A program made the translations under genes and the position numbers. From Acidobacteriota bacterium (GTDB lineage Bacteria > Acidobacteriota > Thermoanaerobaculia > Multivoradales > Multivoraceae), in the NCBI GenBank assembly GCA_028875725.1, contig JAPPCR010000023.1, forward strand, positions 531,620-595,619: a stretch of 64,000 nucleotides of DNA. The letters are read 5' to 3'. Positions 26,471 through 37,892 of this stretch are shown here, piece after piece. Numbering within the stretch: position 1 is the first letter of the stretch; every line of letters begins with the position of its first letter. The notes under the pieces were generated by a model. The model had not been told where the DNA came from. It ran no database searches and worked only from the letters and a program-made list of their open reading frames with translations.

Positions 26471-27649
26471 TCAGTAGGACAGGTTCTCGGTGACGCGTAC
26501 CCAGCGTCCGTCCTGTACCTCAGCGAGGAACGACTCGTCCGAGCCGACACGCTTCTCCGGCCCGAAGCTCAGGACCGGGCCGCCGAAGATGTCCTGGTAG
26601 TCGTCGATCGACTCGATCGCGGCGACCAGCGAATCGACCGTGAGGCCCGGTCCGGCGTCGCGTAGGGCCCTGACCGTGAAGTCGGCGACCAACCAGCCCA
26701 GGAGCGAGCCGGTGTTGGGCTCCGGGCCGTAGCGTTCCTTGTAATCGGCGACGAAGTCGCGGACCTCCTGGCGAGGATGATCGGCGTAGGGAAACTCGAA
26801 GGACGTCATCGCGTAGAAGCCATTCGTCACGCCGCCCTCCGCCTCCGCGACCTCGGACTCGAACGCCGCGATCGGGCCGACGAAGTCGACGTCCCAGTCG
26901 ATTCCCCTTGCCGCCGAGATCGCCAGGATCGTGTCGCCGATGATCGTTCCGAGCACGATCAGGTCGCAGTCGGCCTGCCGGAGCTTGAGGATCGCCGCGC
27001 TGAAGTCGGTGTCGAGAGGCCTGTGGGCGGTCGAGTCGATGACCTCCCGGCCCATTTCGCCGAGCTGATCGTTCGCGGCGTCGGTCATCTCCGTTCCGTA
27101 GTCGGTGTCCTGGGTCATCGTGCAGATGCGCTCCTTGCCCCTCTCCTCGACGAAGTACCTGATGGCGGCGCGCATCTGGTCGTAGTAAGTGGAGATGCCG
27201 GCGAACTTCAGCGGATGCAGCGGTTCCGCCATCGAACGCGCGCCCGAGAGCGGGAAGATGTTGGGAACGCCCGCCTCGAACTGGCTGGTCATGACGGCGT
27301 TGTTCATCGGCGTCCCGAGGGCGCCCACCATGGCGAAGATCCTGTCGCGGTGGATCAGCTTGTTGGCCGCCTGGACCGCGCGAGGCACCTGGTATTGATT
27401 GTCCTCGACGACGAAGCGGATCTGACGGCCGTGGATGCCGCCTTCCTCGTTCACGCGATCGAAGATCATTCGCGCCGCGTTGATGCTGCCGACACCGATG
27501 GCCGCGGCCGGACCGGACAGGTCGGTGTAGGTGCCGAGCACGATCTCCCCGGCCGTTTCCGAGGTCTCGGGATCGGAACTCCCGCATCCTGCCAGGACGG
27601 CGCCAAGCAACATGCAAGCAACGGTGAGGGAATGGTGTCTCTTGGTCAT
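26471..27649 (-). CDS. ABC transporter substrate-binding lipoprotein (LivK-type)
   Basis: A 392-residue periplasmic binding protein of the branched-chain amino acid type. MTKRHHSLTVACMLLGAVLAGC is a lipoprotein signal; the mature part begins with GEIVLGTYTDLSGPAA, the usual first strand of the family. Its start overlaps the acyl-CoA synthetase stop (ATGA), and it ends the liv-type operon. This family also binds aromatic acids and amides, and the embedded acyl-CoA synthetase suggests an organic acid ligand (inference). The upstream in-frame extension overlaps the synthetase and is rejected. Confidence 0.92.
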   Translation of the reverse strand: MTKRHHSLTVACMLLGAVLAGCGSSDPETSETAGEIVLGTYTDLSGPAAAIGVGSINAARMIFDRVNEEGGIHGRQIRFVVEDNQYQVPRAVQAANKLIHRDRIFAMVGALGTPMNNAVMTSQFEAGVPNIFPLSGARSMAEPLHPLKFAGISTYYDQMRAAIRYFVEERGKERICTMTQDTDYGTEMTDAANDQLGEMGREVIDSTAHRPLDTDFSAAILKLRQADCDLIVLGTIIGDTILAISAARGIDWDVDFVGPIAAFESEVAEAEGGVTNGFYAMTSFEFPYADHPRQEVRDFVADYKERYGPEPNTGSLLGWLVADFTVRALRDAGPGLTVDSLVAAIESIDDYQDIFGGPVLSFGPEKRVGSDESFLAEVQDGRWVRVTENLSY

Positions 27650-29541
27650 GCCTGCTGTCCTCCGTACATCGAATCGATCAGGGGTCGGTACTTCTCGTTC
27701 ACGAACTTGCGCTTGAGCTTCATCGTCGGCGTGAGCTCGTCGTCCTCGGGGGTCAGCTCCTGGTCGATCAGGCGGAACTTCTTCACCTGCTCGACGCGCG
27801 CGAACTTCGCGTTGACGGCCTCCACCTGATCGTGGATCAGCTCGACGATCTCCTCCGCGGCGCACAGGCTCTGGTAGTTGGTGAAGGGCACGTGGTGATC
27901 CTGAGCGTATTTGACGACGTTGTCGTGGTCGATCATCACGAGACATGTCAGGTACTTGCGCTTGTCGCCGATCACCACCGCGTCGGCGATGTAGGGCGAG
28001 AACTTGAGCTGGTTCTCGATCTCGCTCGGAGTGATGTTCTTGCCACCGGCCGTGATGATGATGTCCTTCATGCGGTCGGTGATCCTGAGGAAGCCCTCGT
28101 CGTCGATCTCGCCGACGTCGCCGGTGTGGAGCCAGCCGTCACGAATCGTCTCGGCCGTCTTCTCCGGCTGGTTGAGGTAACCCATGAAGACGAACTCTCC
28201 GCGGATCAGGATCTCGCCCTCCCCGGAGATCCTGATTTCGCCGTAGGGAACAGAGCGGCCGACGGTGCCGGGCTTGATGTCGCCCGGTTGCAGCATGGAG
28301 GCGATGCCGGTGTTCTCGGTCTGGCCGTAGCCTTCCACCATGTCGATGCCGAGTGCGAGATACCAGCGGATCAGATCGGGTGAGATCGGCGCGGCCCCGG
28401 TGCCGATCCAGCGACAGCGGTCGAGGCCCAGGAACCTGCGAATGTTGCGCAGCACGAGCGCATCGCCGACGCGGTAGGCGAGCTCCAGGACCGCTCCCGG
28501 CCTCTCGCCCGCGAGACGTTTGTCCGCCCGTTTGAACCCGATCCCTATCGCCTTTCCGTACGCCCATCGCTGCAGGAAGGTGGCGTCGGAGAGGGCGATG
28601 CTGATGGCCGAGTAGAACTTCTCCCACACGCGCGGCACCGAGAAGAACAGCGTCGGCTGGATCTCCTGAGCGTTCTCGGGCACCGTTTCCGGATTCTCGA
28701 CGAAGTTGAGCTTCGTGCCGGTGTAGAGGGAGCCGTAGACGAAGATGCGCTCGGCGATGTGGCACAGCGGCAGGAAGGCCATGCGCTCGTCGTCCTCGTT
28801 CTGCGAGAGGACGTGCGGGGCGTTGACGCACTGGAACACGAGGTTGTGGTGGCTGATCATCGCCCCCTTCGGAGGCCCGGTGGTGCCGGAGGTGTAGACG
28901 AGGATCGCGAGGTCCTCGGGCTTCGCCAGCTCGAGGCACTCGGCCCAGGCCTCGGGGTGGAGCTCGTCCTGTTCGCGTCCGAGCGCGAGCAGGTCGTCGT
29001 AGCTCATGGCCCGCGCATCCTCGAAGTCCCGCAGGCCCTCCATGTCGAAGATCACGATCTGTTCGAGCGTCGGGCACTTGTCGCGCACCTCGAGCACCTT
29101 GTCGAGCTGCTCCTCGTCTTCGACGAACATCACCTTGCAGCTCGAGTCGTTGACCAGGTAGTCCACCTGCTCGGCCGCATCCGTCGGGTAGATCCCGGCG
29201 CACACGCCGCCGGCGCCGAGTACCCCCATGTCGGCGAACATCCACTCGGTGATCGTGTTGGAGAGGATGCAGGCGACGTCGCCCTTGCCGAAGCCGAGCG
29301 ACCGCAGCGCCAGCCCCGTATGGCGCGCCTTCTCGCCGAAGGTGCGCCAGGAGACGTCCTGCCAGATGCCGAAGTCCTTCTCCCGCATCGCGATGCGGTC
29401 GCCGTACTTCTCGACGCGGCTCCAGAACATCGTCGGTACGGTGCCGGCGAAGCTGGTGTCGCGCCAGAACACGAGCTCGCGGCCGTCGTCGGCCACGCGC
29501 GTCTCGCGCACCAGATCGGGGTTCGATTCGACGCCGCCCAT
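27646..29541 (-). CDS. Long-chain-type acyl-CoA synthetase (AMP-forming)
   Basis: A 631-residue ANL-superfamily ligase that activates a carboxylic acid with ATP and CoA. The P-loop is YTSGTTGPPKGAMISHHN, the adenylate motif is GYGQTENTG, and LHTGDVG and ITDRMKDIIITAGGKN are the hinge and C-terminal motifs. The ATG follows GGAGG by about 6 nt and lies 2 bp after the LivF stop. Its place inside a branched-chain-type ABC operon suggests that the imported acid is made into a CoA ester on entry; chain length is not predictable. Confidence 0.92.
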   Translation of the reverse strand: MGGVESNPDLVRETRVADDGRELVFWRDTSFAGTVPTMFWSRVEKYGDRIAMREKDFGIWQDVSWRTFGEKARHTGLALRSLGFGKGDVACILSNTITEWMFADMGVLGAGGVCAGIYPTDAAEQVDYLVNDSSCKVMFVEDEEQLDKVLEVRDKCPTLEQIVIFDMEGLRDFEDARAMSYDDLLALGREQDELHPEAWAECLELAKPEDLAILVYTSGTTGPPKGAMISHHNLVFQCVNAPHVLSQNEDDERMAFLPLCHIAERIFVYGSLYTGTKLNFVENPETVPENAQEIQPTLFFSVPRVWEKFYSAISIALSDATFLQRWAYGKAIGIGFKRADKRLAGERPGAVLELAYRVGDALVLRNIRRFLGLDRCRWIGTGAAPISPDLIRWYLALGIDMVEGYGQTENTGIASMLQPGDIKPGTVGRSVPYGEIRISGEGEILIRGEFVFMGYLNQPEKTAETIRDGWLHTGDVGEIDDEGFLRITDRMKDIIITAGGKNITPSEIENQLKFSPYIADAVVIGDKRKYLTCLVMIDHDNVVKYAQDHHVPFTNYQSLCAAEEIVELIHDQVEAVNAKFARVEQVKKFRLIDQELTPEDDELTPTMKLKRKFVNEKYRPLIDSMYGGQQA

Positions 29542-29543
29542 GC

Positions 29544-30308
29544 TCACCTCCAGGTCTTGCGCTTCTTCCACCGGCGGACCCCCCTCGGCATCTGGTCCTT
29601 CATGCCGAGATAGAACTCCTGGATGTCCGGCGAACTCTCGAGCTTCTCGCACGTGTCGTCCATGACCACCCGTCCGTTCTCGAGCACGTAGCCGTAGTGC
29701 GAGTGCCGCAGCGCGACGTGGGCGTTCTGCTCGACGACGAGGATCGTCATGCCCGCCTCCTCGTTGATGCGCTTGATGATCTCGAAGATCTGGTGGACCA
29801 GGATCGGGGACAGGCCGAGCGACGGCTCGTCGAGCAGCAGCATCCTCGGATGCGCCATCAGGGCGCGTCCGATGGCGAGCATCTGCTGCTCGCCGCCGGA
29901 GAGCTGGCTCGCCGGCTGCGAGCCCCGATCGGCGAGCGCCGGGAAGTAGTCGTAGACGCGCTCGAGATCGTCGGCGATGCGGGCGCGGTCGCGGCGGCTG
30001 AAGGCACCCATTCGCAGGTTCTCGTTCACCGAGAGGAAGGGAAAGACCTCCCGGCCCTCCGGCACGTGGCTCAGGCCGAGGCGCATGACGGCGTCGGGAT
30101 CGCGGCGCGCGATGTCCTCGCCGGCGAAGAGGATCTCGCCCTTCTGGGGATCCATCACGCCGGAGATCGTACGGAGAATGGTCGTCTTGCCCGCGCCGTT
30201 GGCGCCCAGCACGGCGACGATCCGGCCCTCGGGCACGGCGAGGCTGACGCCGCGGATCGCCATGATGGGACCGTAGTAGGTCTCAACGTTCTTGAGCTCG
30301 AGCAACAC
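29544..30308 (-). CDS. livF: ABC transporter ATP-binding protein (LivF-type)
   Basis: A 254-residue cytoplasmic ATPase. Walker A is GANGAGKTT, the signature LSGGEQQ, and Walker B MLLLDEPSLGLSP. The start is a GTG directly after the LivG stop. It carries a basic extension at the C-terminus (RGVRRWKKRKTWR) not typical of LivF. It pairs with LivG to drive the LivH/LivM channel. Confidence 0.93.
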   Translation of the reverse strand: MLLELKNVETYYGPIMAIRGVSLAVPEGRIVAVLGANGAGKTTILRTISGVMDPQKGEILFAGEDIARRDPDAVMRLGLSHVPEGREVFPFLSVNENLRMGAFSRRDRARIADDLERVYDYFPALADRGSQPASQLSGGEQQMLAIGRALMAHPRMLLLDEPSLGLSPILVHQIFEIIKRINEEAGMTILVVEQNAHVALRHSHYGYVLENGRVVMDDTCEKLESSPDIQEFYLGMKDQMPRGVRRWKKRKTWR

Positions 30309-31070
30309 TCAATCCGCTCCCAGGTAGGCGTCGACGACGGCGGGGTTCTTCTGCACGTCCGCGGGGCTCCCCTCCGCGATCACGCGACCCTCGTTGAGGG
30401 CGAGCACCCGCCCCGCCACCCGGCTCACGAGACCCATGTCGTGCGCCACCATGACGACCGTGACGCCGAGATCGCGGTTGATGTCCTCGATCCAGAACCC
30501 CATGTCCTCGCTCTCCTCGGGGTTGAGCCCCGAGGTCGGCTCGTCGAGGAGCAGCAGCTTCGGCTCGAGGCAGAGCGCGCGGCCCACCTCCACGACCTTG
30601 CGCACGCCGTATGGCAGGTTCGCGATCCTCTGCTCGCGGTAGTGGGCGAGCTCGAGGAGGTCGATGACGTCTTCCACGCGGCGCCGGTGCTCGAGCTCCT
30701 CCCGCCTCACCGCGGGGAGGAACAGGAGGTGGGACAGCGCGGTCGAGCGCCGGTGGACATGACGGCCGATAAGGAGGTTCTGCAGAACGGTGGCGTGCTC
30801 GAAGAGCTCGATGTTCTGGAAGGTGCGCGCGAGGCCGAGCGGTGCGATGCGATGCGCCGGCAGCGAGGTGATGTCGCGGCCCGCGAAGCGAACGCTCCCG
30901 CCGTCGGGGGAGTAGATGCCGCTCACCAGGTTGAAGAGCGTCGTCTTGCCGGCTCCGTTCGGTCCGATGATGGCGAACACCTCGCCCTCCTCGACCTCGA
31001 AGCTCACGTCGTCGACGGCACGAATGCCCCCGAAGCTGATCGACAGGTCCGTAACGGCGAGGTAGCTCAC
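30309..31070 (-). CDS. livG: ABC transporter ATP-binding protein (LivG-type)
   Basis: A 253-residue ATPase of the LivG group, with Walker A GPNGAGKTT, Walker B LLLLDEPTSGLNP and H-loop VAHDMG. The signature region reads LPYGVRKVVEVGRAL, the degenerate form normal for LivG. The GTG start overlaps the LivM stop (GTGA), giving translational coupling. Confidence 0.93.
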   Translation of the reverse strand: MSYLAVTDLSISFGGIRAVDDVSFEVEEGEVFAIIGPNGAGKTTLFNLVSGIYSPDGGSVRFAGRDITSLPAHRIAPLGLARTFQNIELFEHATVLQNLLIGRHVHRRSTALSHLLFLPAVRREELEHRRRVEDVIDLLELAHYREQRIANLPYGVRKVVEVGRALCLEPKLLLLDEPTSGLNPEESEDMGFWIEDINRDLGVTVVMVAHDMGLVSRVAGRVLALNEGRVIAEGSPADVQKNPAVVDAYLGAD

Positions 31071-32143
31071 CTCAGTCGCTCCGTGCGCAGGTAGGTCTTC
31101 TGGCGCCGGTGCGTCGCCCGGCGATAGAGCGGGAACAACTGGAAGTAGCTCTTGATCTTGAGCCAGCGGCCGAAGATGCCCTGGGGCTCGAACAGGATCA
31201 CCAGCACGAGGATGAGGCCGAAGATGCCCGGCTCGAGGCCGGGAGCCTGTGCGATCTGCGGCGGCAGCGTGTCGCGGGCGATGGCGAGGAGCTGAGGCAG
31301 AAAGCCGATGAAGAGCGCGCCGTAGATGACGCCCCGCATCGAGCCGACCCCGCCGACGACCACCATCAGGAGGAGCTGCAGCGAGATGAGGAACGTGAAG
31401 GCATCGGGCGAGAGGTAGCCGAGGCGATGCGCGAAGAGAGCGCCGGCCAGGCCGGTGATGCCGGCGCTGAGAGCGAAAGCGAAGGTCTTGTAGACGGCCA
31501 GGTTGATGCCGACGCTCTCCGCCGAGATCTCCGAGTCACGGATGGCGACCATGGCTCTTCCGGTCGAGGACCGCAGGATGTTGAGCGCCGCGAAGAGGGT
31601 CACGACGAGGAGCGTGAGCGTCAGGTAGTAGTGCTGCCAGCCCTGCGTGAGCGGCATCCCGAAGAGGCTCGCCTGCGGAACGGCGAGGCCGCGAAAGCCC
31701 CCGGTGAGCCACTCGGCGCGCGAGATCGTCTGCTCGGTGAGCATGGCGAAGGCCAGGGTGGCGATGGCGAGATAGATGCCCGTCATCCGGAGCGCGATCC
31801 ACCCCACGCCGGCGCCGACGAGCGCCGAGACCAGGACCGCCGCGACGATCGAGAGAAGGAACGGGAGACCGGCGCCCAGAAGCAGCGAGTGGGTATAGGC
31901 GCCGATCGCCAGAAACGCCGCGTGGCCCAGGCTCACCTGGCCGGTGTAGCCAACGAGCAGCATCAGACCGACGCCGGCGATGGCGTAGATCATCACCAGG
32001 TTGAGCTCGCCCAGATAGAAGGTACCGAGCGCCGCCGGCGCCGCGGCGGCCAGCACCAGGAGCAGGCCGTACCAGAACCGGTCGCCACCGTGCTTGAGGT
32101 GGTCGATGTCCTGGTTGTAGTGGGTCTTGAAGAGGAACCGCAT
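31067..32143 (-). CDS. livM: ABC transporter permease (LivM-type)
   Basis: A 358-residue inner-membrane permease with 8-10 hydrophobic helices and the family stretch GLMLLVGYTGQVSLGHAAF. It lies 15 bp downstream of LivH. A hydrophilic tail (YRRATHRRQKTYLRTERLR) extends past the last helix. With LivH it forms the channel. Confidence 0.93.
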   Translation of the reverse strand: MRFLFKTHYNQDIDHLKHGGDRFWYGLLLVLAAAAPAALGTFYLGELNLVMIYAIAGVGLMLLVGYTGQVSLGHAAFLAIGAYTHSLLLGAGLPFLLSIVAAVLVSALVGAGVGWIALRMTGIYLAIATLAFAMLTEQTISRAEWLTGGFRGLAVPQASLFGMPLTQGWQHYYLTLTLLVVTLFAALNILRSSTGRAMVAIRDSEISAESVGINLAVYKTFAFALSAGITGLAGALFAHRLGYLSPDAFTFLISLQLLLMVVVGGVGSMRGVIYGALFIGFLPQLLAIARDTLPPQIAQAPGLEPGIFGLILVLVILFEPQGIFGRWLKIKSYFQLFPLYRRATHRRQKTYLRTERLR

Positions 32144-32158
32144 GATGCTCGCTGGCCG

Positions 32159-33031
32159 TCAGACCTTCTTTCGCTGAATCTGCGCGAACAGACCTTCGGG
32201 CCGCAGGATCAAGGCGAGAATGAGAATGCCGTAGGCGGCCATCTCCTGGAAACCGGCGGGCAGGTAGACCCCCGCGACCTGCTCGGCGATCCCGATGATC
32301 CAACCGCCGAGCAGCGCGCCGGGGATCGAGCCGAAGCCGCCGATCACCGCGGCCGCGAAGGCCTTGATCCCGATGAATCCCATCCCGGGCTGGACGAGCG
32401 AGACGGGCGCCAGGAGGATCCCGGCCACGGCGGCGACTCCGGCGGAGATCGCCCACACCAGAGAGAAGACTCGCTTGACCGGGATGCCGACGTAGTAGGC
32501 CGCGAGCTGGTTCTGCGACGTGGCCTGCATGCCGATGCCGAGCCGCGTGTGGCGGAAGAAGAGGAAGAGCACGACGCAGAGGACGAGGGTGCCCAGGAGG
32601 ATCGCGAGGTTCTCGTAGCTCACGACGACCTCGCCGACACGCAGCGACTCGCCGGTGTACGGAGTCGGAAAGCTCCGCGGGTCGTAGCCCCACACCAGTC
32701 CCGCCACGGCGCGGAAGATGAAGCCCAGCCCGATCGTCAGCATCACGATGGCGAACTGCGGCTCGCCCAGAACGCGGCGTAGCACGAAGGCGTCGAGCAG
32801 ATAGCCGAAGACCGCCAGCGCCAGGACCGACAGCAACAACCCCAGCGCCCAGGGCAGACCGAAGTCGCCGATCAGGGTCACCGCCATGAAGGCGCCCAGC
32901 ATCATGAGATCGCCCTGGGCGAAATTCACCATCTCGGTCGCCTTGTAGACGAGGACGAAGCCGAGAGCGATCAGGCCGTAGATGCAGCCGACGGCCAGAC
33001 CATTGATGAGAACCTGCAGGAGCTGACTCAG
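32159..33031 (-). CDS. livH: ABC transporter permease (LivH-type)
   Basis: A branched-chain-type permease with about eight helices, including GLIALGFVLVYKATEMVNFAQGDLMMLGAF, the LivH hallmark given here as positions ~23-52. The start is uncertain. No ATG is available; a CTG at 33031 has AAGGAG 5 nt upstream and gives 290 residues starting at LSQLLQVLINGL, the usual family length. A GTG at 33115 would add 28 residues with no membrane character. The first gene of the liv operon, divergent from the DUF3604 gene. Confidence 0.88.
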   Translation of the reverse strand: MSQLLQVLINGLAVGCIYGLIALGFVLVYKATEMVNFAQGDLMMLGAFMAVTLIGDFGLPWALGLLLSVLALAVFGYLLDAFVLRRVLGEPQFAIVMLTIGLGFIFRAVAGLVWGYDPRSFPTPYTGESLRVGEVVVSYENLAILLGTLVLCVVLFLFFRHTRLGIGMQATSQNQLAAYYVGIPVKRVFSLVWAISAGVAAVAGILLAPVSLVQPGMGFIGIKAFAAAVIGGFGSIPGALLGGWIIGIAEQVAGVYLPAGFQEMAAYGILILALILRPEGLFAQIQRKKV

Positions 33032-33136
33032 AGTGACTCCTTCACCGGCCCGCGTCCCGCGTGCCCGGCTTCCCTGTGCCGGATTCCGGACCGGACGGAG
33101 TATAGCCTTGGCCACCTACCAACACGGGAGAGAACG

Positions 33137-34969
33137 ATGGCGAGAAGAGTCCATCGCATCGCCGCGCTGGCGGTCTGCGTATCGTGCGCCACGGCCGGCG
33201 CCGCAAGCGGGCAGCGCAATGCCTACTTCGGCGATCTGCACATCCATACCCGTTATTCCTTCGACGCGTTCGTTTTCGGCACCCGCGCTTCGCCCGACGA
33301 CGCCTACAGCTATGCGCGCGGGGAGGCGATCAAACATCCCGCCGGCTACCGGATCCAGCTCGATCGCCCGCTCGATTTCTACGCCGTCACCGATCACGGG
33401 ATGTACCTGGGGGCGTTTTCGGCCATGACCGATCCTGCCCATCCGCTCCACGGTGCTTCCGAAAGCCGTCGCTTCTTCGATCCGAAAGACGTCGACGAAA
33501 GACGCGCGGCCTTTCGATCCGCCGGCGCGTTTCTCAGGGAGCATCCCGACCCCGGGGCCTCACGTTCGGCATGGCGGGAGATCATCGAGTCGGCGGAGCG
33601 CAACTACGAGCCGGGCAAGCTCACCACCTTCGTCGCCTACGAGTTCACGTCGTCATACCCCCCGGGGGCCAATCAACACCGCAACGTCATCTTTCGCGGC
33701 GCGAACGTGCCCGACCAGCCCTTCAGTCGGCTCGACTCGCCGAACCCCGAGGATCTCTGGGACTGGCTCGAAGGTTTGCGAGCACGGGGCATCGAGGCGC
33801 TCGCCATCCCCCACAACTCGAACCAGAGCGATGGCTACAGGTTCGCGCGCCAGAAGCTGTCCGGGGAGCGATTCGACGAGGCGTACGCCCGACTCCGGAT
33901 GCGCAATGAACCACTGGTGGAGATGACACAGGTCAAGGGCACCTCGGAAACACACCCGCTGCTTTCCCCCAACGACGAGTGGGCCGACTTCGAGATCATT
34001 CTTCTCACCCCGGAAGAATCGAGCTTCGACAGAATCCGCGGAGGCTACGTGCGCGACGCCTACCTGGCTGGTCTCGAGTTCGAGGAGAGGGAGGGCTTCA
34101 ACCCCTACCGGTTCGGGATGATCGGTGCGAGCGACAGCCACAATGCAGGAGCCTCGTACGAGGAGTCGTCCCATATCGGCAAGGTCGGCTTCCTCGATGG
34201 GATGCCGGTGGGGCGGGGATCCGTACCCCCCGAAGGAGCTACCAGTTGGAAGGACGTGGAGGAAGCCGCCGAATCCGACGCGACCTCACGGCCCCCACAG
34301 GAGATGTTCTCGACCTGGGGCGCTTCCGGCCTGGCGGGCGTGTGGGCCGAGGAGAACACCCGCGAATCGATCTACGACGCCTTCCGTCGCAAGGAGACGT
34401 TCGCGACCACCGGACCGCGCATCCGGGTGCGCTTCTTCGCCAGCTACGGCTTCGATGACGATCCGTTTCAGGACGTGGAACTCGTGGCGAAGGCCTACGA
34501 GCACGGAGTACCGATGGGCGGCGACCTCCCTGCCCGGCACAGCGGCGTGCCGCAGTTCCTGGTCTGGGCGGTGCAGGACCCCGAGTCGGCGAAGCTCCAG
34601 CGCGTGCAGGTGATCAAGGGCTGGATCGAGGACGGCCAGCCACAGGAAAGTGTCTACGATGTCGCCTGCTCCGACGGCCTGGAGGTCGACTCCGAGACCC
34701 ACCGCTGCCCCGACAACGGCGCTCAGGTCGATCTTGCCGACTGCAGCGTCAGCCCCGACGTCGGTTCAACCGAGCTCATGACGCTCTGGACCGACCCCGA
34801 CTTCGACCGTAGCCAGCACGCCTTCTACTACCTGCGAGCCCTGGAGAATCCGACCTGCCGCTGGTCGACGTGGGATGCGATACGGGCGGGAACTCCACCT
34901 CGACCCGGCCTCGCACTCACCCTTCAGGAGCGCGCCTACTCCTCTCCCATCTGGTCGGTACCGAACTGA
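33137..34969 (+). CDS. Exported DUF3604 (PHP-like) protein
   Basis: A 610-residue secreted protein with a signal peptide cut near AASGQ. The body is DUF3604, related to PHP metal-dependent phosphoesterases: YFGDLHIHTRYSFDAF carries the first HxH, FYAVTDHG the next ligands, and GMIGASDSHN the late Asp/His. The biochemical role of the family is not established. A ribosome site (GGGAG) precedes the ATG. It is divergent from livH, with about 105 bp between the starts to hold both promoters. Confidence 0.88.
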   Translation: MARRVHRIAALAVCVSCATAGAASGQRNAYFGDLHIHTRYSFDAFVFGTRASPDDAYSYARGEAIKHPAGYRIQLDRPLDFYAVTDHGMYLGAFSAMTDPAHPLHGASESRRFFDPKDVDERRAAFRSAGAFLREHPDPGASRSAWREIIESAERNYEPGKLTTFVAYEFTSSYPPGANQHRNVIFRGANVPDQPFSRLDSPNPEDLWDWLEGLRARGIEALAIPHNSNQSDGYRFARQKLSGERFDEAYARLRMRNEPLVEMTQVKGTSETHPLLSPNDEWADFEIILLTPEESSFDRIRGGYVRDAYLAGLEFEEREGFNPYRFGMIGASDSHNAGASYEESSHIGKVGFLDGMPVGRGSVPPEGATSWKDVEEAAESDATSRPPQEMFSTWGASGLAGVWAEENTRESIYDAFRRKETFATTGPRIRVRFFASYGFDDDPFQDVELVAKAYEHGVPMGGDLPARHSGVPQFLVWAVQDPESAKLQRVQVIKGWIEDGQPQESVYDVACSDGLEVDSETHRCPDNGAQVDLADCSVSPDVGSTELMTLWTDPDFDRSQHAFYYLRALENPTCRWSTWDAIRAGTPPRPGLALTLQERAYSSPIWSVPN

Positions 34970-34999: not shown

Positions 35000-36247
35000 T
35001 CAGATGTAGGGCTCGACGCCGGGCATCAAGACATCCATGTAGACGCGGGGGACCATGGCGCGGCGGCCGAACATGCCGAGCGCGCGGTGCTCCGAGCCGG
35101 CGAGTCGCACTGCCGCTGCGCCGATGAGGCGGGCCAGCGCCGTCTCGCGCCAGAACCAGTCCCGGAGCTCGAGTGACGTCGCCCGGCCAGGGCGGCCCTG
35201 GGCCGCCTCCATGTACCAGGTGCGCAGGTCGTCGCAGCCGAGGCGCACCCACTCGGGGAGCGGCAGGTTCGTGGCGACCGACGGGTCGTTCGCGCCGCCC
35301 GCCAGTTCGCCCAGTCCGCGCACGATCTGTTCGTGGCTCAGGCCGCTCGCCGGCGGCGCGGATCGACCGCGCCGCGCCGCGTAGACCTCCTGCCAGGGCG
35401 CGAGGCGCCGCAGTTCCGCGAGGACCTCGCCTGCCAGCCCGGCATCGTCGCCGGCGGCCCCGGCGAACGAGACCGGACAGGACCAGCCTGGGCCGTCGTC
35501 GGCCGCGCCGTCGGTGGCGGCGGGCGCGTCGTCGGGAAAGTCCTCCAGGACGACCGGGCCGTCCCGCCGCTCCAGCAACCCCAGCGCCGAGCGCAGCACG
35601 CGGCGCTGGAAGTCCGGTTCACGGGGCGCGCCGAACGGCCGGCCCAACTCGAACGGCACCCACAGGAACCGGGGCAGTTCCATCCGCTCCGTGTTGACCC
35701 GCACCAGGCTGATGCCCGTCGTCGCGATGCCTTCGTCTTCGAGGAAGTGACTCACCGCGCCCACGGCGCGGGTGCAGTTCGGTCATACAGGACAGAGGCA
35801 GACAGCCTCCACCTCGTCCTCCCTGAGCCGTGCGGCGAGTTCGCGCACCGTCGGTTCGATCGCCTCGGGAGGCCAGCCGGCGCCCATCAGCGAGTAGTGG
35901 AAGTCGGCCACCGACCCGATCTCCCCCTCGCTCTCCAGTTCGCGCAGCCGGTCGAGCGGGAACACGACGTTCACGTCCTCCCGGAAACCGGTCCGGTCGA
36001 AGTGGACGGACGAGTGCGTCATCGTCAGGTCGCTGGTCGAGATCGAGCCGGGAATCACCCGGTAGCTCAGGTCGACCGTCGAGAAGGCCTGATCGCCCAC
36101 CCGGTGAAGGCCGGCCGAAGTCACGAGCGCCACCCGCCGCTCCGCCAGCGGCGGACCCTCGACCCACGGCCGAGTCGCGAACGGCAGGCACTCCTTCGCC
36201 GCCACGTGAGCGGCTTCGACTTCGGCCATGTCGGACAGTCGGACCAT
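35000..36247 (-). CDS. GrdB-like selenoprotein with in-frame UGA (Sec155)
   Basis: Two adjacent open frames in the same phase form one 415-residue protein if the UGA at 35783-35785 is read as selenocysteine. The join reads EAVCLCPV-U-PNCTRAVGAVSHFLE, giving a redox UxxC motif (U155, C158). Sequence on both sides matches one family: glycine/sarcosine/betaine/D-proline reductase selenoprotein B-like (GRDB), whose aerobic relatives carry Sec at this place. There is no ATG or ribosome site suited to restarting just after the UGA. The ATG at 36247 follows GAGGAGA. A hairpin starts 8 nt after the UGA. It probably acts as a thiol/selenol oxidoreductase; its substrate is unknown. Confidence 0.88.
35753..35774 (-). 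promoter_or_regulatory. Bacterial SECIS-like hairpin downstream of the Sec codon
   Basis: Starting 9 nt after the UGA, the message can fold as CACC-(C)-GCGCC pairing with GGCGC-GGTG around a GUG apical loop, about nine base pairs with one bulged C. Bacterial SECIS elements sit inside the coding region just after UGA and present a G-U in the apical loop to SelB. Distance and loop fit; the pairing was judged by eye and is helped by the high G+C. Confidence 0.6.
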
Positions 36248-36389
36248 CGCGTCTCCTCGTGCAGCCGGAGGCTGACACAATCGAGCGGCCTTGCCACCCG
36301 GCGCGGACGTTGCGGCCGCTCTGTAGGATCCATCCGCCGTGCCGACTGCCGGTGCGCCGGCCTTGGCCAATCAGCAGGGAGTGACGTCC

Positions 36390-37892
36390 ATGACTATCGC
36401 CGCCTCCGTAGACACCCGCGTCCCCACGTCCCTCCCCGACCTGGTCGACCCGGGTCTGCTCCGGTCCCAGGCCTACATCGATGGCCAGTGGGTCGACGCC
36501 GACTCCGGCGAGACCTTCGCCGTCGAGAACCCGGCCAACGGCGAAGTCCTGGCCGACGTCGCCAACTGCGGCGCGGCCGAGACCCGGCGCGCGATCGCGG
36601 CGGCGGGCCGCGCCCTGAAGAGCTGGCGCCAGACCACCGTCAAGGAGCGCGCCGCGCTGCTGCGCCGCTGGTTCGACCTGATGATGTCGAGCCAGGAAGA
36701 CCTGGCGCGGATCCTGACCGCCGAGCAGGGCAAGCCGCTGGCCGAGTCCCGCGGCGAGATCGCCTACGGCGCGAACTACGTCGAGTGGTTCGCCGAGGAG
36801 GCCAAGCGCGTCTACGGCGACACGATCCCCGGGCCGTCCAACGACAAGCGGATCGTCGCGATCCGGCAGCCGATCGGCGTCGTGGCGGGCATCACCCCCT
36901 GGAACTTCCCGAACGCCCTGCTCACCCGGAAGATCGCGCCGGCCCTGGCCGCCGGCTGCACCGTGGTCTGCAAACCGGCGAACGAGACGCCGCTCTCCGG
37001 CTTCGCGCTGGCCGAACTCGCCGAGAGCGCCGGCATTCCCGCGGGCGCCGTCAACATCCTCTGCGGCAAGACGGAGGAGATCGGCCGGGAGCTGACCTCC
37101 AACCCGACCGTCCGCAAGCTCAGCTTCACCGGCTCCACCGCGGTCGGCAAGCTGCTCATGGCCCAGTGCGCCGGCACGATGAAGCGCACGTCGATGGAGC
37201 TCGGCGGCAACGCGCCGTTCATCGTCTTCGACGACGCGGACCTCGACGCGGCGGTCGAAGGCGCGATGATCTGCAAGTTCCGGAACGCCGGCCAGACCTG
37301 CGTCTGCGCCAACCGCATCTTCGTCCAGGAGGGCGTCTACGACGAGTTCACCGACAAGCTCGCCGAGGCCGTGGCCGGCATGAAGATGGGCGACGGCACC
37401 GAAGACGGCGTGACGATCGGACCGCTCATCCACCGCCAGGCCGCCGACAAGGTGATGGGCTTCATCGAAGACGCCGTCGACCGCGGCGCCACCATCGAGT
37501 CCGGCGGCGGACCCTCCGATCTCGGCGAGTGCTTCCTCGAACCCACGATCCTCTCCGGCGTGACGGACGACATGCGCTGCTTCCGCGAAGAGGTCTTCGG
37601 CCCCGTCGTGCCGCTGATGAAGTTCAGCACCGAAGAAGAAGCGATCGCCATGGCCAACGACACCGAGTTCGGCCTGGCCAGCTACTTCTACGCCCGCGAC
37701 GTCGGCCGCATCTGGCGCGTCAGCGAGGCGCTGGAGTACGGCATCGTGGGGATCAACGAAGGCATCATCTCCAACGAGATGGCCCCCTTCGGCGGCGTCA
37801 AGGAATCCGGCCAGGGCCGGGAGGGGTCGAAGTACGGCTTGGACGACTACCTCGAGATCAAGTACATGTGCATCGGGGGGATCGAGGCGTAG
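36390..37892 (+). CDS. Succinate-semialdehyde-type aldehyde dehydrogenase
   Basis: A 500-residue NAD(P)-dependent aldehyde dehydrogenase of the GabD group. Visible are ITPWNFPNALLTRKIAPALAAG, shown as a family block near residue 170, the cofactor loop FTGSTAVGK, the Glu in ELGGNAPF and the nucleophile Cys in GQTCVCANR (second Cys two residues later, as in GabD). The ATG at 36390 has AGGGAG upstream; the earlier in-frame start lacks one. Divergent from the selenoprotein gene with 142 bp between the starts. Succinate semialdehyde is the best guess. Confidence 0.9.
   Translation: MTIAASVDTRVPTSLPDLVDPGLLRSQAYIDGQWVDADSGETFAVENPANGEVLADVANCGAAETRRAIAAAGRALKSWRQTTVKERAALLRRWFDLMMSSQEDLARILTAEQGKPLAESRGEIAYGANYVEWFAEEAKRVYGDTIPGPSNDKRIVAIRQPIGVVAGITPWNFPNALLTRKIAPALAAGCTVVCKPANETPLSGFALAELAESAGIPAGAVNILCGKTEEIGRELTSNPTVRKLSFTGSTAVGKLLMAQCAGTMKRTSMELGGNAPFIVFDDADLDAAVEGAMICKFRNAGQTCVCANRIFVQEGVYDEFTDKLAEAVAGMKMGDGTEDGVTIGPLIHRQAADKVMGFIEDAVDRGATIESGGGPSDLGECFLEPTILSGVTDDMRCFREEVFGPVVPLMKFSTEEEAIAMANDTEFGLASYFYARDVGRIWRVSEALEYGIVGINEGIISNEMAPFGGVKESGQGREGSKYGLDDYLEIKYMCIGGIEA

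Follow-up and report, generated by a model that had tools for sequence, protein, structure and literature searches.

Reading frame and in-frame TGA

Does the minus strand at positions 35000-36247 of the window (the whole 64,000-nt stretch of DNA analysed here) carry two short genes, a broken one, or a single selenoprotein gene with selenocysteine (Sec) at its active site, and in the last case, what kind of enzyme would it encode? Mechanical ORF calling cuts the gene in two at a TGA, and the second ORF begins at a GTG at 35764. Read through on the minus strand, the frame consists of an ATG start codon at 36247-36245, 154 open codons in all, the TGA (35785-35783), a further 260 codons and a TGA stop at 35002-35000, giving a product of 415 aa plus stop in which Sec is residue 155. 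A Shine-Dalgarno-like GAGGAG, read from the sequence, is located 5 nt before the ATG (36253..36258). The in-frame TGA (35783..35785) supplies the first residue of a U-P-N-C motif, and Cys158 (35774..35776), the presumed resolving residue of the UxxC, is invariant in the proteins of this architecture, here called the long form. An earlier note on this DNA had described a single frame broken by one UGA at 35783-35785 and lacking a good restart after it. Its coordinates were right, the strand (minus) can now be added, and the start that ORF calling gives the second frame, GTG 35764, proved to be the apical loop of a hairpin and is not preceded by a Shine-Dalgarno-like sequence.

Conservation and selection

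Within the genus, the full-length gene was found in nine other genomes at 90-97% identity, each with exactly one in-frame TGA, and in pieces in two further genomes. Across 84,980 species genomes scanned, 33 loci were found, 29 of which cover the TGA site. The hosts are Candidatus Multivorans and other Acidobacteriota, Acidimicrobiia and other Actinomycetota, Myxococcota/Deltaproteobacteria, Gammaproteobacteria (the K189A clade and others), a Rhodospirillales MAG and Hydrogenedentota. At the place where the earlier note had considered that homologues might show a true stop or a restart, the Sec codon is TGA in 29/29 site-covering loci (five phyla, 35-97% identity), and a long form with Cys there was not encountered among these 29. 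The invariant residues in 22 long-form sequences include P153, residue 155, P156, C158, R160 and the more distant C257. Values of dN/dS within the genus were 0.06-0.24 ahead of the TGA, 0.05-0.37 between residues 156 and 239 and 0.02-0.14 beyond residue 239; the top values are those of the closest relative and are based on few changes. Purifying selection acts on both sides of the TGA.

SECIS-type hairpin

Bacterial SECIS (bSECIS) rules describe an apical loop of 3-9 nt with G in the first two places, a stem of 4-16 bp, a distance of 16-37 nt from the UGA and an MFE of at most -7.5 (PMC13188914). A hairpin at 35755..35771 (minus strand) conforms to this pattern, with a stem of 7 bp, an apical GUG at 35764-35762 and a UGA-to-loop distance of 18 nt; the folding energy of the 51-nt stretch that contains it is -20.2 kcal/mol (z -2.2). 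The minimum-energy pairing in the window's own sequence is a shifted form with the loop GCC. Across 36 distinct long-form and short-form sequences, stem pairing is present in 90.9% of cells, and slid versions of the stem reach 47.6% at most. Two-sided stem changes were counted in 63 cells against a shuffled mean of 21, with 0/500 shuffles as high. The earlier note had likened a hairpin with a GUG loop to bacterial SECIS elements, a likeness that is borne out by the rules and by the covariation, but had placed its beginning 8 nt downstream of the UGA; since in the covarying stem nt 15-21 are paired with nt 25-31 (the U of UGA being 1, with G-U at nt 22-23), the 5' arm begins 11 nt after the UGA.

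Stem bases differ while the structure is equal between the window (CCGCGCC-GUG-GGCGCGG) and a short-form paralogue in the same genome (AUCAGUCC-GUG-GGACUGAU). A point of caution is the share of synonymous recodings that pair equally well, which was 5.8% for the window, 0.005% for L081, 0.3% for L080 and 0.5% for the paralogue, and by the same test the L074 hairpin pairs no better than chance. When a covariance model of the hairpin was run genome-wide, its two strong matches were the selenoprotein gene and the paralogue. Five weaker matches (E 0.19-2) were read and looked unlike selenoprotein genes. Rfam gave no match on the window or on the hairpin.

Decoding of codon 155

The host genome (4.54 Mb, 98% complete) has selB (350 bits joined, cut-off 242), selA (350 bits), selD (253 bits, cut-off 125) and a single tRNA-Sec gene (selC) with the anticodon UCA (74 bits, ARAGORN concurring). 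The organism had been supposed in the earlier note to decode UGA as Sec, and the presence of selA, selB, selC and selD is in line with this. SelA is also present in 26/26 searched long-form genomes, compared with 2/14 control genomes. From this sequence evidence, UGA codon 155 almost certainly directs selenocysteine insertion, and it would be decoded by SelB and tRNA-Sec under the direction of the SECIS hairpin just downstream. A full Sec system is thereby placed in sponge-associated Acidobacteriota.

A pseudogene, a sequencing error or a pair of genes, in which translation would end at the TGA and what follows would be decaying or translated anew from GTG 35764, would fit the two frames given by standard ORF calling, and the genome is a draft of 23 contigs. 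However, the TGA recurs in independent assemblies of five phyla, dN/dS is low downstream of it, the restart GTG is a hairpin loop with no Shine-Dalgarno-like sequence ahead, and selABCD are present, all of which make this reading highly improbable. Insertion of a different amino acid (Trp or Cys) at the UGA, or its plain suppression, is barely conceivable: the inserted residue cannot be told from an open frame alone, but TGA ends the selenoprotein gene and several neighbours, tRNA-Sec (UCA), SelB, SelA and SelD all occur together, and this position holds Cys in relatives and Sec in PrdB.

Relationship to PrdB, GrdB and other homologues

The protein had been termed GrdB-like in the earlier note, and assigned to a family, GRDB, that contains Sec members. 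Its place in the GRDB superfamily holds, as Pfam GRDB (PF07355) gave a partial match over residues 34-151 at 46.6 bits (gathering cut-off 22), but the closest characterised relative is PrdB and not GrdB. The best curated NCBI family is PrdB (TIGR04483), with 106.3 bits over residues 33-226 (35570..36151, minus strand), under the cut-off of 300; the GrdF, GrdH and GrdB models scored lower than PrdB and all under cut-off, GrdB (TIGR01917) reaching 44.8 bits against 602. The identical set of five curated families was hit by 22/22 long-form homologues. Sec members are indeed found in this family, since annotated prdB genes of Peptoclostridium, Terrisporobacter and Ligilactobacillus plasmids carry TGA in the same UxxC column, the motif there being UGTC and in the window UPNC.

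Apart from the homologous domain and the shared Sec column, PrdB differs from the window protein in being about 240 aa long without a helical domain, in being encoded with prdA and in its hosts, which are anaerobic fermenters, and it forms a separate clade. PrdB is said, in work attributed to Kabisch et al. 1999, to be the selenoprotein subunit of D-proline reductase. In the case of GrdB, GrdF and GrdH, the C-terminal half of the GrdB models matches residues 34-226, UxxC included, whereas the window protein lacks the N-terminal half of GrdB and has a different C-terminal domain. Two alphaproteobacterial proteins (Haematobacter, Roseomonas) annotated as 'glycine/sarcosine/betaine reductase selenoprotein B family protein' share the homologous domain but have Cys in the Sec column, a length of about 305 aa and another tail.

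A homologue is carried by 100/396 sampled Acidobacteriota genomes, many with one TGA and many without. The TGA-free genes that were read have Cys (L127, L134, L135), Ser or a diverged site, and a natural Sec/Cys pair is formed by GGUPSVC in L145 and GGCPEVC in L127. Ser is found at the Sec place in seven Acidobacteriota genes, L138-L144 (PASRLC or PASKLC), so the superfamily also persists without a selenol or thiol. In L128, L129, L130, L131 and L132 the site is diverged (TPGEVLSHQS, GGCxLSHQS) and the UxxC spacing is missing.

The paralogue mentioned above is a short PrdB-like gene (C6:944247-944882; L002, L049) with 36% identity, a single TGA (PVUPVC) and a hairpin of its own. Together with other short PrdB-like Acidobacteriota Sec proteins, it resembles the window gene in the place of the TGA and the position of the hairpin, and these proteins differ in having no helical domain and in carrying HQ/NQ after the UxxC in place of TR/SR. 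It adjoins MsrB-like and inositol-oxygenase-like ORFs (assigned by eye).

Domain structure and phylogeny of the long form

Downstream of the PrdB/GRDB-like domain, the long form has a flexible linker (residues 245-267, 35447..35515) and a C-terminal helical domain (residues 269-415, 35003..35443), both on the minus strand. The linker contains Cys257 (35479-35477), the residue invariant in 22 sequences. AlphaFold, supplied with a 22-sequence alignment, returned a mean pLDDT of 82, predicting an alpha/beta domain that ends near residue 240, disorder across the linker at 245-267 (pLDDT below 50) and helices at 271-407. The last 147 residues modelled alone reached a pLDDT of 93.6 and form seven helices. 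This helical domain belongs to no known family, with no Pfam match in 12 homologues and no PDB relative by sequence or by fold, and nothing significant came out of searches of the PDB (sequence, fold) and of a viral fold library. Phylogenetic analysis of 50 sequences groups the long forms in a single clade (99/92) that is distinct from both PrdB (100/100) and the Cys proteins. In this tree, the window's genus branches among Myxococcota sequences, a placement that suggests gene transfer between phyla.

Gene neighborhood

Neighbor genes were taken from composition-based calls and direct tblastn; a clustering of neighbors in which false ORFs of the high-GC DNA dominated was dropped. The divergent neighbor is an aldehyde dehydrogenase gene of the succinate-semialdehyde-dehydrogenase type (36384..37892, plus strand; TIGR01780 704 bits, cut-off 646), which is kept beside the selenoprotein gene across the genus (78-85% identity in the genus loci). 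On the other side lies a convergent DUF3604 gene (33137..34969, plus strand), followed by genes co-oriented with the selenoprotein gene for branched-chain-type ABC uptake, an AMP-binding ligase and a periplasmic binding protein (26471..33115, minus strand). In most genus members, the selenoprotein gene is immediately followed by the ABC uptake operon; the large DUF3604 gene separates the two in the window's species and its nearest relatives alone.

At 15 loci, which represent four lineages, the selenoprotein gene is directly followed on its own strand by a gene for a TauD/TfdA dioxygenase. Three of these loci are from the window's genus and 12 from Myxococcota/Deltaproteobacteria, Acidimicrobiia and Gammaproteobacteria, and the gap between the two genes is -8 to 32 nt, or 378 in L061 (12 loci measured). 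The TauD neighbors fall into two subfamilies, and the presence of two unlike TauD subfamilies by the same selenoprotein gene in distant hosts argues for a working link. No TauD gene lies beside the selenoprotein gene in the window's species, so the link cannot be an essential one in that species, and TauD relatives elsewhere in the window's genome are only distant (35%). Within the genus, TauD follows the selenoprotein gene in L061, L070 and L076 and is absent from this position in L056-L060, L062 and the window, a patchy presence that implies recent gain or loss.

Proposed function

To our knowledge, Sec-dependent GRDB/PrdB proteins have been characterised only from anaerobic amino-acid fermentation. 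The window gene very probably encodes a Sec-dependent, PrdB-related redox enzyme that works without a pyruvoyl partner. Searches of six genomes from the genus gave no PrdA/GrdE partner (PF09338), while both prdA-bearing records searched as controls gave a match, in agreement with the earlier note's view that the gene stands outside an obvious anaerobic glycine-reductase operon. In D-proline and glycine reductases, the chemistry comprises selenolate attack, a carbon-selenium bond and a selenenylsulfide (PMC10298544). In the window protein, the Sec155 selenolate would attack a small substrate, Cys158 of the U-P-N-C would resolve the selenium intermediate into a Se-S bond, and Cys257, the invariant residue of the flexible linker, may relay electrons to this bond from a thiol donor. 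The fused helical domain probably provides substrate binding, because the pyruvoyl partner of D-proline/glycine reductase is missing.

The likeliest role, proposed tentatively, is a catabolic one in which a small compound taken up by the cell is reduced or reductively cleaved as part of an oxygen-using metabolism. A fuller scheme is doubtful: the long form would be a Sec-only class of oxygen-using bacteria, carrying out reductive cleavage of C-N or similar bonds, with the helical domain replacing PrdA and a TauD-type Fe/2-oxoglutarate dioxygenase acting in sequence on the same compound in many hosts.

It is also possible, if somewhat unlikely, that the protein has no catabolic role and is a thiol-based defence or repair enzyme, reducing peroxides, sulfoxides or disulfides by means of Sec155, Cys158 and Cys257. 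The UxxC and the invariant Cys257 fit a thiol relay, the short paralogue lies beside an ORF judged by eye to be MsrB-like, and an ocean survey groups PrdB with thiol oxidoreductases (PMC2398784); yet there is no match to any solved thiol-redox structure, and the genes conserved next to the long form are of metabolic type (TauD, aldehyde dehydrogenase, ABC uptake). It is very improbable that the protein is a D-proline (or glycine, sarcosine, betaine) reductase subunit with the usual chemistry, for although PrdB is the best curated match (106 bits) and has the UxxC in the same place, the scores fall far short of the cut-offs, both that of PrdB (300) and those of the Grd models, PrdA/GrdE are absent from the six genus genomes with controls positive, the clade is a separate one and there is an extra domain.

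Relatives in seawater

Selenoproteins of the PrdB type with a UxxC motif have been on record from seawater since 2005, and the long form is a variant of this kind. The kind was already known because the Sargasso Sea and GOS surveys report PrdB-labelled UxxC selenoproteins; they rank third in abundance among the families of the Sargasso Sea, with 42 genes (PMC1088965), and account for 235 Sec members of PrdB in the GOS data (PMC2398784). The marine proteins share the Pfam family and the motif with the window protein and come from oxic habitats; they are given as family counts, and in the passages covered the extra domain and the TauD neighbor are not mentioned (PMC1088965, PMC2398784). A keyword search of the open-access literature found no paper on the long form, on the helical domain that it adds or on its link with TauD, and returned nothing relevant on PrdB-like or GrdB-like selenoproteins, on Acidobacteriota or sponges, or on TauD.

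Ordinary annotation splits the selenoprotein gene at its active site. The surveys list many UxxC members from oxic seas with function not assigned, and a testable handle on these proteins is offered by a clade that is Sec-only, has an additional domain, lacks a pyruvoyl partner and often adjoins a TauD gene. A second TGA-bearing homologue, with 41% identity, is found at the end of an Acidimicrobiia contig that also carries a long form (L068:7940-8398).
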